Positions 4,406 through 20,618 of a DNA stretch of 59,281 nt are shown here, piece by piece (within the stretch, counting starts at the first letter, position 1; every line of letters starts with the position of its first letter). The translations under genes were made by a program, and so were the position numbers. The notes under the pieces were generated by a model. It was not told the origin of the DNA. It did no database searches and saw only the letters and a list, made by a program, of their open reading frames with translations. The stretch is from Limnohabitans sp. (GTDB lineage Bacteria > Pseudomonadota > Gammaproteobacteria > Burkholderiales > Burkholderiaceae_C): positions 1-59,281 of the forward strand of contig SHXD01000012.1 in NCBI GenBank assembly GCA_009693505.1, written 5' to 3'.

Positions 4406-4434
4406 ATTATACCCAAACAAGGGTGAAAAGTCTA
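4406..4434 (-). promoter_or_regulatory. Candidate rpoD promoter overlapping the end of dnaG
   Basis: On the minus strand a perfect TATAAT (4406-4411) is preceded, 17 nt upstream, by TAGACT (4429-4434), which matches TTGACA at four of six positions. The -35 element overlaps the dnaG stop codon (4432-4434). Transcription would start about 240 nt before the rpoD ATG, leaving a long untranslated leader in 4161-4398, where I see no gene. Confidence 0.5.
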
Positions 4435-6387
4435 AATAATTTCAGTGCTCATGAGGGTTCGCCTGCGTTGATGCAGATCGCGCCATTTTTGAAAGGCTTC
4501 GGGGCTTTGAATACTTTCGGCCTCTTTGAGCGCTTGCGTTTCAAGCCCTTTCAGGCGGTCGATGAGCATCAGGTTGAGCAGTAGTCTGAGCTCTTTGCGG
4601 GCTTCTCCAGGCTCCCCTTCCGTGCTGACTTCGGGTGCATTCGGCTTGTGCGACTCCATCAATTTTTCAGCCAAATTCGCGAATGCAAGTTGACTTAATT
4701 CCGACTGCAGGGCACCCCAAGCCAAAGGGCCATGGTCATGAAATTGGCTTTCAATCCAACGCATGAGCTCACCATGTTGTTCGGGTAAGTCGCACAACAA
4801 GGCATGGTCTTCGGCAGACAAGCCGTCCCATAAGGCCATGTTGGTAAGTAAAAGCCTGACAGCATGGTCAGATCGGCTTGCAGGTTGAACCCGCGGCCCA
4901 AGTGAAGCCATTTGCATGGCACCCATCCCGCCCACCAAGCGCCATTTGCCTTGAGGATTTTGTTGCCATGTTTTGCCATCGGGTCTGGTCCGCGCTTTTT
5001 TCGGTTCTGCGAGTAGGCCAGGGGCAGAAGAAACTGCGTTGCGCGGATTGCTTCGAGCCAATGCAGCTTCGGCTTGTTGGAGCCATAGACCGGCCAACTC
5101 CGAAGCTTCAAGCTGAATCAACTGGGCTAATTCAGAAAGCAATTGACGTTTCAAGGCGCCGTCGGGGAGGGCGCGCCACAGTGGGCTGGCATTGCTTGAA
5201 AGATGTGCTCGGCCTTCTGCCGATTGCAAATCACAAGCTTCTGAGGCAATCTCGATTAAAAACTTTGACAGTGGCGTGGCCATAGCGACACAGGCAGAAA
5301 AAGCCTCAGAGCCTTTTTCGCGAATGAAACTGTCGGGGTCGTGCTCTTCGGGCAAAAACAAGAATTTAATATTTCTAATGTCGGTTGCATAAATCAGAGC
5401 GCCATCAAGGGCTTTGCGAGCGGCTCGGCGACCTGCGGCATCACCGTCAAAACTGAACACCACAGAATCTGTAAATCTGAAAAGTTTTTGAACGTGGTCT
5501 GGCGTGCAGGCTGTCCCTAAAGTTGCCACGGCATTGGGAAATCCCCATTGGGCCAAGGCCACCACATCCATGTAGCCCTCAGTGACCAAGACATAGCCTG
5601 CATCGTGAATGCTGTCGCGCGCCTCAAACAAGCCATAAAGCTCGCGCCCTTTGTGAAACACCGGCGTTTCTGGCGAATTCAAATATTTGGGTGTGCCATC
5701 TCCCATGACGCGTCCGCCAAAACCGATGCATTCACCTTTGATGCTTCGAATCGGAAACATCACACGGTCTCTGAATCGATCGTATCGCTTGTCATCTTCC
5801 TCATTCACGATGACCAAGCCGCTCTCGGCCAAAAGTGGATCGTCGTATTCAGGAAAAATACTTGCCAAGCTGCGCCAACCTTCAGGTGAGTAGCCCAAAC
5901 CAAATCGTTTTGCAATTTGCCCAGATAAGCCGCGTCCTTTCAAGTAAGCGACAGCCTTCGGTGCATTTTTCAAATGTTGCTGATAAGCGCTGGCCGCTTT
6001 TTCTAACATATCGCTTAGGCTGGCTTGTTTTTGTTTTTGAGCGGCGGCGATGGCCCTGTCTTGAGGCGAAAGGTCCTCCTCAGGCACAGTCATGCCAGTC
6101 TGCTGTGCCAAATCTTTCACCGCTTCTATGAAGCTCATGCCTGCATGGTCCATGAGAAAGCCAATGGCATTGCCATTTTTTCCGCAGCCGAAGCAATGAA
6201 AAAATTGTTTGGTGGGGCTGACTGTGAAGCTGGGCGATTTTTCTCCGTGAAAGGGGCAAAGGCCCATGAAATTTGCGCCGCCTTTTTTCAGCTGCACGAA
6301 GCGGCCAACGACCTCCACCACATCTACGCGGGATATAAGTTCTTGAATAAAAGACTGAGGAATGGCCACGCTTGTATTTTCGCCCAA
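4432..6387 (-). CDS. dnaG: DNA primase
   Basis: This 651-residue enzyme makes the RNA primers for chromosome replication. The N-terminal zinc-binding domain shows the CHC2 pattern (CPFHGEKSPSF, then FHCFGCGKNG), beginning near residue 44. The catalytic TOPRIM core has EGYMDVVALAQWG and, further on, the metal-binding SFDGDAAGRRAA. The C-terminal domain, which docks on DnaB helicase, is less conserved but of normal size. The start is uncertain. I use the TTG at 6385-6387, which has a GAGG ribosome binding site 7 nt upstream. A GTG at 6367-6369 would give a start closer to known primases (residues VAIPQSFIQ) but has no clear binding site. A terminator lies just upstream. Confidence 0.95.
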   Translation of the reverse strand: MGENTSVAIPQSFIQELISRVDVVEVVGRFVQLKKGGANFMGLCPFHGEKSPSFTVSPTKQFFHCFGCGKNGNAIGFLMDHAGMSFIEAVKDLAQQTGMTVPEEDLSPQDRAIAAAQKQKQASLSDMLEKAASAYQQHLKNAPKAVAYLKGRGLSGQIAKRFGLGYSPEGWRSLASIFPEYDDPLLAESGLVIVNEEDDKRYDRFRDRVMFPIRSIKGECIGFGGRVMGDGTPKYLNSPETPVFHKGRELYGLFEARDSIHDAGYVLVTEGYMDVVALAQWGFPNAVATLGTACTPDHVQKLFRFTDSVVFSFDGDAAGRRAARKALDGALIYATDIRNIKFLFLPEEHDPDSFIREKGSEAFSACVAMATPLSKFLIEIASEACDLQSAEGRAHLSSNASPLWRALPDGALKRQLLSELAQLIQLEASELAGLWLQQAEAALARSNPRNAVSSAPGLLAEPKKARTRPDGKTWQQNPQGKWRLVGGMGAMQMASLGPRVQPASRSDHAVRLLLTNMALWDGLSAEDHALLCDLPEQHGELMRWIESQFHDHGPLAWGALQSELSQLAFANLAEKLMESHKPNAPEVSTEGEPGEARKELRLLLNLMLIDRLKGLETQALKEAESIQSPEAFQKWRDLHQRRRTLMSTEII

Positions 6388-6405: not shown

Positions 6406-6428
6406 AAAAAAAAACCTCGCGATGCAGG
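6406..6428 (-). terminator. Intrinsic terminator/attenuator just upstream of dnaG
   Basis: On the minus strand a short stem (GCAGG-type arm 6424-6428 pairing with the CCTCGC arm 6415-6420, loop GAT, one bulge) is followed by nine T (6406-6414). It ends only about 19 nt before the dnaG start, so transcripts from upstream must read through it to express primase. The stem is short, so efficiency is probably partial. Confidence 0.6.
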
Positions 6429-18983: not shown

Positions 18984-20618
18984 ATGTCTTATCTCGTTCT
19001 GGCACGCAAATACCGTCCTCGCAACTTCACTGAAATGGTGGGGCAAGAGCACGTTGTGCAAGCCCTGACCAATGCCCTTGTGCAACAAAGGTTGCACCAT
19101 GCCTATTTGTTCACCGGCACCAGGGGCGTGGGCAAGACAACGGTGTCTCGCATTTTGGCCAAATCACTCAATTGCCAGGGCACTGACGGGCAGGGCGGCA
19201 TCACAGCTGAGCCTTGTGGTGTTTGTCAGGCCTGTCGGGACATTGATTCAGGTCGCTTTGTCGATTACACGGAGCTTGATGCCGCCTCCAATCGGGGTGT
19301 CGATGAAGTTCAAAGCTTGCTTGAACAGGCGGTTTACAAACCGGTTCAGGGGCGCTTCAAAGTGTTCATGATTGACGAGGTTCACATGTTGACCAACACG
19401 GCCTTCAATGCCATGTTGAAAACGCTTGAAGAGCCGCCTGAGTATTTGAAGTTTGTTTTGGCCACCACCGACCCCCAAAAAGTACCCGTCACTGTTTTGT
19501 CTAGGTGCTTGCAATTTAACTTGCGTCCCATGGCGCCAGAAACTGTCTTTGAACACCTCACGAAAGTTTTGGCACAAGAGAACTTGCCCGCTGAGCCTCT
19601 GGCACTGAAGTTGTTGGCCCGAGCCGCCAGAGGGTCCATGCGCGATGCACTGAGCCTGGCCGATCAAGCCATTGCATTTGGCAGCGGACAATTGCAAGAA
19701 GCCACGGTTCGTTTGATGTTGGGCAGCGTCGATCGCAGCCATGTCATGGGCCTCATTGATGCCCTTGCTCGGGGCGATGGCGCCGCGGTCGTTGCAATTT
19801 CTGAAGGCCTGCGACTGAATGGTTTGTCTGCGGCCTCGGCTTTGGAAGACATGTCCATGGTGTTGCAGCGCATGGCCGTGTTGCAAGCAGTCCCTAGCGC
19901 TGCCGCTGAATCGGATGACCCGGATCACCAAGAGATGTTGCGTTTGTCAGAGGCCATGCCCGCCGATGAAACGCAGTTGCTCTATAGCTTGTGTTTGCAC
20001 GGCCGCACAGAATTGGGCTTGGCGCCCGATGAGTATGCGGCGCTCACCATGGTCTTGCTGAGGCTACTGGCTTTCAAGCCCAAAGCTCATCAAGCTCAAG
20101 AAGCTCAACAGGTGCAGGCGCCTGCGGCTCAAAAAAAAACTTTAACGACAGCGCCTATTCAAGTTAAGAATTTGCCTGTCCGTCAAGCCAGTGAACCTTC
20201 TGAAAGAACAGCGCCTAAAGTGTTGGTCGCCACAGAGGAGGGCCATTTTTGGACTCAAACAGTTCGTCAATTGGTTGCTTCTGAAGCTGTGACGGCCTTG
20301 GTGCGTGAGTTGGCCTTGCAATCGCAATTGATAGCGCGCGATACCGATCAATGGCATTTGAGAATTGACAGCGAATCCTTAAACCAAGGCACTGCGCGCG
20401 AGCGTTTACAAGCCGCATTGAACGCCGCAGGGTTTGCCGTCAAGCTGGTGGTTGAAATTGGCAAAGTGACCGATTCACCTGCACAGCGGAATGCCGCTGA
20501 TTTGGCTGAAAAGCAAAAAGCGGCTGAAGATTTAATTCATTCAGATCCCATGGTGCAAGACATGGTTGAAAATTTTGGCGCCAAAATAGTGCCCGGCACA
20601 ATCAAGCTTATTTCTTAA
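18984..20618 (+). CDS. dnaX: DNA polymerase III tau subunit (with candidate gamma frameshift site)
   Basis: This 544-residue clamp-loader ATPase opens and closes the beta clamp at the replication fork. It has the P-loop [16 protein letters not shown], a zinc-binding cysteine cluster ending CGVCQAC, the Walker B segment [10 protein letters not shown], and sensor 1 [18 protein letters not shown]. Residues from about 370 on are a Pro/Gln/Ala-rich linker and the C-terminal domain that in tau contacts the polymerase and DnaB. Near codons 383-386 a run of nine A (20131-20139) could allow slippage; the -1 frame stops after nine codons and the +1 frame stops almost at once, giving a product of about 386-394 residues like gamma. 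The ATG lacks a clear ribosome binding site. Confidence 0.96.
20114..20140 (+). promoter_or_regulatory. Candidate slippage/frameshift site in dnaX
   Basis: In frame, the mRNA reads CAA-AAA-AAA-ACT across nine A (20131-20139). Five nt upstream is a perfect 12-bp palindrome, GCAGGCGCCTGC (20114-20125), and there is an AGG-containing segment that could act as an internal ribosome pairing site. A -1 shift reads AAC TTT AAC GAC AGC GCC TAT TCA AGT and stops at 20165-20167. A +1 shift reads CTT and stops at TAA (20143-20145). Homopolymer slippage makes gamma from dnaX in Thermus, and ribosomal -1 shifting at A AAA AAG does so in E. coli. Confidence 0.55.

Follow-up and report, generated by a model that had tools for sequence, protein, structure and literature searches.

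Introduction

Bacteria in which dnaX gives rise to a short γ product, beside the full-length τ subunit of DNA polymerase III, are known to use different routes. In Escherichia coli γ results from a −1 ribosomal shift at the heptamer A_AAA_AAG, in Thermus from slippage on nine A, where both alternative frames carry stops, and in Caulobacter from proteolysis (PMC5009743, PMC1088944). The E. coli-type signal is common to nine genera including Neisseria, and seventeen dnaX genes composed of two open reading frames (ORFs) require a shift for τ (PMC3711429). Outside the enterobacteria and Thermus, most bacteria have been described as lacking a dnaX frameshift signature and may not make γ (PMC3290774). 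Slippage yielding a truncated product was considered hard to predict by comparative sequence analysis in an earlier survey (PMC1088944), and a review refers to considerable controversy about the importance of γ in E. coli (PMC5009743). This report deals with a run of nine A (A9) in the dnaX gene of a Limnohabitans sp. contig (SHXD01000012.1, assembly GCA_009693505.1), whose analysed stretch of 59,281 nucleotides is called the window. From the comparison of sequences, the A9 is very likely a recoding site for a γ-like product, and there are good grounds to regard it as a programmed site at which slippage of RNA polymerase would yield γ beside τ.

The site resembles the published description of Thermus thermophilus dnaX in its nine A on the sense strand, the single ORF, the close stops in both frames and a product devoid of the C-terminal part; it differs in that the lineages are unrelated and in its location at about 70% of the gene, compared with seven-eighths in Thermus (PMC1088944). 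With E. coli dnaX it shares the logic of the product and a similar place (codon 383 of 544 here, 428-430 of 643 there), but E. coli uses A_AAA_AAG, a Shine-Dalgarno element and a stem-loop, whereas A9 stands in the window. A few relatives, Polaromonas among them, do resemble the E. coli design, and the A9 and A_AAA_AAG designs correspond to the difference published for Thermus and E. coli. The two-ORF genes of the GeneTack set also carry an A-run, mostly of 10 A, on which slippage has been proposed, but there the shift is needed for τ, which is the standard product here (PMC3711429). Caulobacter makes a γ-like product too, but by cleavage of finished τ (PMC5009743). The available parts of PMC5009743, PMC3711429, PMC1088944, PMC4066793 and PMC3290774 contain no mention of A9 dnaX in Comamonadaceae, nor was a report of it found among the literature matches listed, judged by title and start of the abstract; the primary Thermus paper (Larsen et al. 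2000, PNAS) may discuss other dnaX genes.

The A9 site of the Limnohabitans dnaX

The dnaX gene occupies positions 18984-20618 of the plus strand and encodes a τ subunit of 544 residues (59.2 kDa; NCBIfam TIGR02397, E 1.2e-121, and Pfam clamp-loader domains). According to the NCBIfam and Pfam matches, the AAA+ core, the lid and domain III extend to residue 369, and τ domain V covers residues 412-535 (20217-20588, plus strand; PF12170, E 2.1e-11). The A9 (20131-20139, plus strand) falls between them, reading across codons 383-386, CAA AAA AAA ACT (20130-20141), in the phase C AA.AAA.AAA.A CT. The E. coli heptamer A_AAA_AAG is not present at the site, and A_AAA_AAA lies within the run instead (20132-20138, plus strand). 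A −1 reading after codon 385 passes through nine sense codons to a TAA at 20165-20167, which would serve mRNAs with 10 A or a −1 ribosomal shift; a +1 reading finds the single codon CTT and then a TAA at 20143-20145, which would serve mRNAs with 8 or 11 A (both stops on the plus strand). The run and the two stops lie where the original prediction had placed them. When the run length was changed by script, the predicted products were of 386 residues (42.0 kDa) with A8, 394 residues (42.9 kDa) with A10 and 387 residues with A11, and 9 or 12 A gave full-length τ of 544-545 residues. The A8 and A11 products would end in QKKL and QKKKL, respectively. Every predicted short product terminates between domains III and V, as E. 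coli γ does, and lacks domain V; the earlier claim of a 386-394 residue protein ending after the ATPase core with the layout of γ is thus borne out by the computed lengths and the domain boundaries.

We propose that RNA polymerase slips on the A9, producing mRNAs with nine plus or minus a few A. Those with 9 or 12 A would be translated into τ, whereas in those with 8, 10 or 11 A the ribosomes would enter the +1 or the −1 frame, and the early conserved stops would end translation just past the clamp-loader core, giving proteins of 386-394 residues without the polymerase-binding domain. That slippage occurs, that it does so in transcription and not in translation, and that the short protein builds up and is functional, we infer from the comparisons described below.

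Conservation of the run, its codons and the off-frame stops

All 90 genomes of the genus searched had a match to dnaX; 86 genes were fetched and 84 were readable at the site (the linker of L080 is N-masked, L085 is a fragment ending before the site, and the four genomes G035, G062, G067 and G076, with fragmentary matches only, were left uncounted). As its test, the original prediction had asked whether close relatives retain the run and the off-frame stops, and both are kept throughout: in 84 of 84 genes exactly nine A stand in phase behind a conserved LAF motif, with both stops at 16 codons or fewer. The bases flanking the run vary between C and G on each side while the nine A are constant, and the flanking residues vary as well (Gln or Glu before, Thr or Ser after). 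In the family, one genome per genus was taken; 118 other genera were searched and 108 genes read (10 with fragmentary matches were left uncounted). Fifty-eight of them carry the run (57 A9, one A10), four have a shorter one (A8 or A_AAA_AAG) and 46 have no site. The 84 genus and 58 family genes form a set of 142, in phase in every case (141 A9, one A10), and the addition of 35 named A9 genes, which include some species already counted, gives a set of 177. The G+C fraction of genes carrying the run ranges from 0.50 to 0.74, and the run lies 4-42 codons beyond the LAF motif in 175 of the 177 A9 genes, those in which the motif was found.

None of the 142 genes lacks a −1 stop within 16 codons, and 141 have a +1 stop within the same distance. 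Both stops would be near in a mean of 17.9 genes (maximum 28 in 200 shuffles) if the 60 following codons were shuffled, and in a mean of 33.1 of the 142 (maximum 45) after synonymous resampling. Both stops are near at 14.4% of other positions in these genes, at 3.8% of positions in the downstream linker, and at 1.8% of nearby positions in family genes that lack A9. With limits of 5, 8, 10, 20 and 30 codons, 38, 97, 132, 141 and 141 genes have both stops, compared with shuffled maxima of 6, 12, 14, 38 and 58.

A recoding signature is kept by the whole clade and shows in codon choice as well as in the two off-frame stops. Both site lysines are encoded by AAA, and the preceding codon is GAA or CAA, in 84 of 84 genus genes, none of which was selected for the run (the corresponding count of 141 of 141 AAA site lysines is fair for the genus; for the 58 family genes, picked for the run, it is circular). 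Elsewhere in the A9 genes AAG prevails over AAA (1190 vs 962) and GAG over GAA, and eight other conserved lysine columns use AAA in 14-81% of cases. When synonyms were resampled according to the codon usage of each gene, the A9 survived on average in 11 of the 142 genes and at most in 22. Across eight genomes there are 2 to 19 exact A9 runs per genome; the 2.84-Mb assembly of the window has 19 on both strands, of which one other, non-coding, is in the window, and the 3.4-Mb relative G161 has two, one of them in dnaX.

In a FastTree phylogeny of the clamp-loader core (135 rows, after exclusion of 15 rows below 300 residues, some shortened by a motif search), a clade with support 98 contains 77 rows: 72 A9, one A8, two A_AAA_AAG and two without the site. 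The 72 comprise 14 genus rows and 58 of the 63 rows of other genera in the clade. Family rows outside it have no A9, and the order rows L197, L202 and L222 have runs of their own. The base is less clear in a quick IQ-TREE phylogeny of 123 rows, with several weak deep branches and some site-less rows (Allofranklinella, G175) grouping with the outgroups. A single origin of the Comamonadaceae site is therefore likely though not proven, and some lineages have lost the site altogether. Of the 80 loci that bear a name, many of which come from the same genomes, 42 have A9, five A_AAA_AAG, four an A9 further downstream and 29 none. Named A9 genera are Acidovorax, Limnohabitans, Rhodoferax, Ramlibacter, Hydrogenophaga, Variovorax, Diaphorobacter, Pseudacidovorax, Hylemonella, Xenophilus, Pseudorhodoferax and others; loci without the site include Roseateles, Rubrivivax, Aquabacterium, one metagenome-assembled genome (MAG) named Rhodoferax, a Comamonas MAG and Allofranklinella. 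Six loci near or in the clade (L149, L173, L352, L357, L358 and L359; Allofranklinella, the Comamonas MAG and others) have neither A9 nor A_AAA_AAG; they may be losses of γ and useful natural negative controls. Outside the family, A-runs of at least eight are sporadic among the loci read (L197, L202, L209, L218, L222, L224, L234 and L249), an uneven sample of 28 order loci (L197-L224) and 29 class loci (L225-L253), the best-scoring of 60 and 56 genomes. A distant search of a plasmid collection returned 22 weak records, which were set aside.

Relatives with A_AAA_AAG

Seven genes have A_AAA_AAG at the site (L105, L155, L189, L344, L347, L361 and L362; L363 repeats L155). The −1 stop comes after one to three codons in all seven, and their +1 stops after 7, 40, 38, 139, 4, 3 and 54 codons. 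A G-rich Shine-Dalgarno-like stretch lies about 15 nucleotides upstream in 7 of 7, with a mean anti-Shine-Dalgarno energy of −9.8 kcal/mol, compared with −2.2 at control positions and −6.3 for E. coli dnaX. The A8 gene, L142, has no such element (−2.5). Taken together, the eight short-run genes differ from the 177 A9 genes in the near +1 stop (3/8 vs 176/177; Fisher p 2e-7, kinship ignored) and in strong upstream pairing of −6 or lower (7/8 vs 25/177, kinship likewise ignored). These features of the seven A_AAA_AAG relatives fit ribosomal frameshifting.

In the IQ-TREE phylogeny, the three Polaromonas-like A_AAA_AAG genes form one group inside a clade with support 95, whose 65 other rows are all A9, and for this reason the A9 has probably been replaced in them. 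The remaining A_AAA_AAG genes stand elsewhere on the tree, making four changes in all, two of them forced by well-supported branches. The A_AAA_AAG genes of Polaromonas and of other Comamonadaceae share a G-rich GTGCCGYCG-like stretch upstream, and its presence on separate branches suggests convergence or segment exchange.

Transcriptional slippage as the probable mechanism, and its alternatives

The main argument for slippage of RNA polymerase concerns the +1 stop, which is needed when bases are added or removed by slippage and unneeded for −1 ribosomal frameshifting. On this basis transcription is likely to be the main slippage mechanism in the A9 genes. Several points weigh against it. The A9 contains A_AAA_AAA, and hence a −1 ribosomal shift is possible. 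The window has a Shine-Dalgarno-like match of −6.1 kcal/mol at 20108-20115, about that of E. coli (−6.3), and the genus mean is −3.50 vs −2.01 kcal/mol in controls, with values of −4 or lower in 32 of 84 genes vs 10% of controls. Three genus genomes examined have, among the matches listed, only tRNA-Lys(UUU), as E. coli does. With regard to the stops, the limit of 16 codons was chosen after the distances had been seen, and the genes share descent, so that the counts are not independent. Synonymous resampling alone retains a near +1 stop in 103 of 142 genes, since the residues after the lysines, often Thr-Leu, favour it; such a stop is near in three of the seven A_AAA_AAG genes, the other four being without it, and E. 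coli dnaX has one 11 codons on, so a near +1 stop in one gene proves nothing.

Production of γ by −1 ribosomal frameshifting on A_AAA_AAA within the run, in the E. coli manner, would draw on these same observations: the heptamer is in phase, every one of the 142 genes has the near −1 stop, the Shine-Dalgarno-like match is there in the window together with the enrichment in the genus, and the A_AAA_AAG relatives appear ribosomal. However, seven A would suffice for such a shift and the +1 stop would be needless, yet nine A and the +1 stop are both kept. Moreover, A_AAA_AAA is ranked much less shift-prone in E. coli than A_AAA_AAG (PMC5009743), and not one of the 84 genus genes has the latter at this position; nor do the A9 genes of the wider family show Shine-Dalgarno enrichment (mean −2.79 vs control −2.56 kcal/mol). 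We consider ribosomal frameshifting an unlikely source of γ in the A9 genes.

Slippage might lower τ, or tune the downstream ybaB and recR by early termination, with the short protein as a by-product; both genes follow dnaX closely on the same strand. For damping, any position in the gene would serve. The run, however, coincides with a domain boundary, 4-42 codons beyond the LAF motif (175/177), and the truncated product retains the whole clamp-loader core, which makes this explanation very improbable. A long mononucleotide run inside a coding gene also recalls phase-variable tracts, which would switch τ on and off by mutation of the DNA. But none of the 84 readable genus genes, one genome per species, has its frame interrupted at the site, and τ is essential in E. 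coli, so off-alleles should not persist; we give this idea hardly any weight. Least probable of all, to the point of being negligible, is conservation of a Lys-Lys protein motif, or chance and base composition. Although the two lysines never vary in the proteins of the genus, AAA is used twice after GAA or CAA in 84 of 84 genes, other conserved lysine and glutamate columns use AAG and GAG freely, and both off-frame stops are kept. Slippage of RNA polymerase on the A9 is the reading that we retain.

A second A9 lineage and the apparent exchange of recoding modes

In the family of G214 (40 genomes searched, 30 loci read, of which at least two end before the site), 15 of 30 loci have, between codons 460 and 647, an A9 that is followed by CTGA and in most cases preceded by GCTC or GCTG. 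The same downstream A9 is found in four named genes (Herbaspirillum autotrophicum, two Collimonas and Polynucleobacter), and not in another Herbaspirillum nor in Cupriavidus. The loci concerned are L197, L388, L391, L394, L395 and members of the range L426-L453, 19 genes in total (not every locus of that range). The site lies 163-215 codons before the gene end, with a −1 stop after one codon in 19 of 19 and a near +1 stop in 14 of 19, compared with a shuffled mean of 8.5 and maximum of 13; upstream Shine-Dalgarno pairing is weak (−1.8). It is located 95-282 codons beyond the LAF motif, vs 4-42 in Comamonadaceae, and on account of this different distance it probably arose separately. A γ made there would retain most of the linker.

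Considering both lineages, we lean towards a history in which γ was kept by selection through most Comamonadaceae while its mode of production switched between RNA polymerase slippage (A9 and both stops) and ribosomal frameshifting (A_AAA_AAG, Shine-Dalgarno element and −1 stop). In this history Polaromonas would have made the switch inside an A9 clade, and other lineages may have done so independently; a second Burkholderiales lineage would have gained an A9 elsewhere in the gene. The conservation of the site, combined with an apparent exchange of recoding mechanisms, argues that γ matters to fitness. This unusual comparative record makes both the role of γ and the exchange of mechanisms testable, and as the clade has named isolates (Acidovorax, Variovorax, Diaphorobacter and others), the former could be approached by silent changes of the run.

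Additional observations

The palindrome that had drawn attention upstream of the run is real: GCAGGCGCCTGC (20114-20125) forms a perfect 12-bp palindrome, and five nucleotides separate it from the A9. A role as stimulator is unsupported: in the 30 nucleotides upstream of the run, the same 12-mer is present in four close relatives among the 142 A9 genes (L001, L002, L005 and L006), and five of the 142 have a perfect 12-bp palindrome of any sequence. The palindrome is taken as incidental. Neither upstream nor downstream RNA structure showed a clear excess of stability over control windows in 28 of the 84 genus genes and the 58 family genes, a comparison in which the E. coli control fails likewise. 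For the downstream stem-loop the mean z was −0.35 and −0.67 in the two groups, and just −0.61 in the E. coli control, so that the test is without power.

A preference for A9 over A_AAA_AAG on account of tRNA-Lys(CUU) was also considered and is unsupported. Among the loci examined, 30 from a longer list of matches, G006, G009, G010, G104 (A9) and G118 (A_AAA_AAG) have only tRNA-Lys(UUU), and G092, G093 (A9), G183 (A10) and G187 (A_AAA_AAG) have both UUU and CUU. In the window's own incomplete assembly no tRNA-Lys was found among 30 of 32 matches.

Two A9 genes end early. In L016 dnaX the A9 segment occurs a second time, out of phase, near codon 454 and the protein ends at 457 residues, possibly through a local duplication or an assembly error; in L102 the frame ends at codon 415, 38 codons beyond the run, which may reflect a sequencing frameshift or loss of τ domain V. 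Three public MAG records, L328, L363 and L386, titled Akkermansia muciniphila, Cytophagales and Bordetella parapertussis, respectively, contain a dnaX resembling that of Comamonadaceae or other Burkholderiales, and their titles may be wrong. The other A9 run of the window (6406-6414) lies about 20 nucleotides upstream of a minus-strand ORF (4432-6387) that presumably encodes a primase resembling dnaG.
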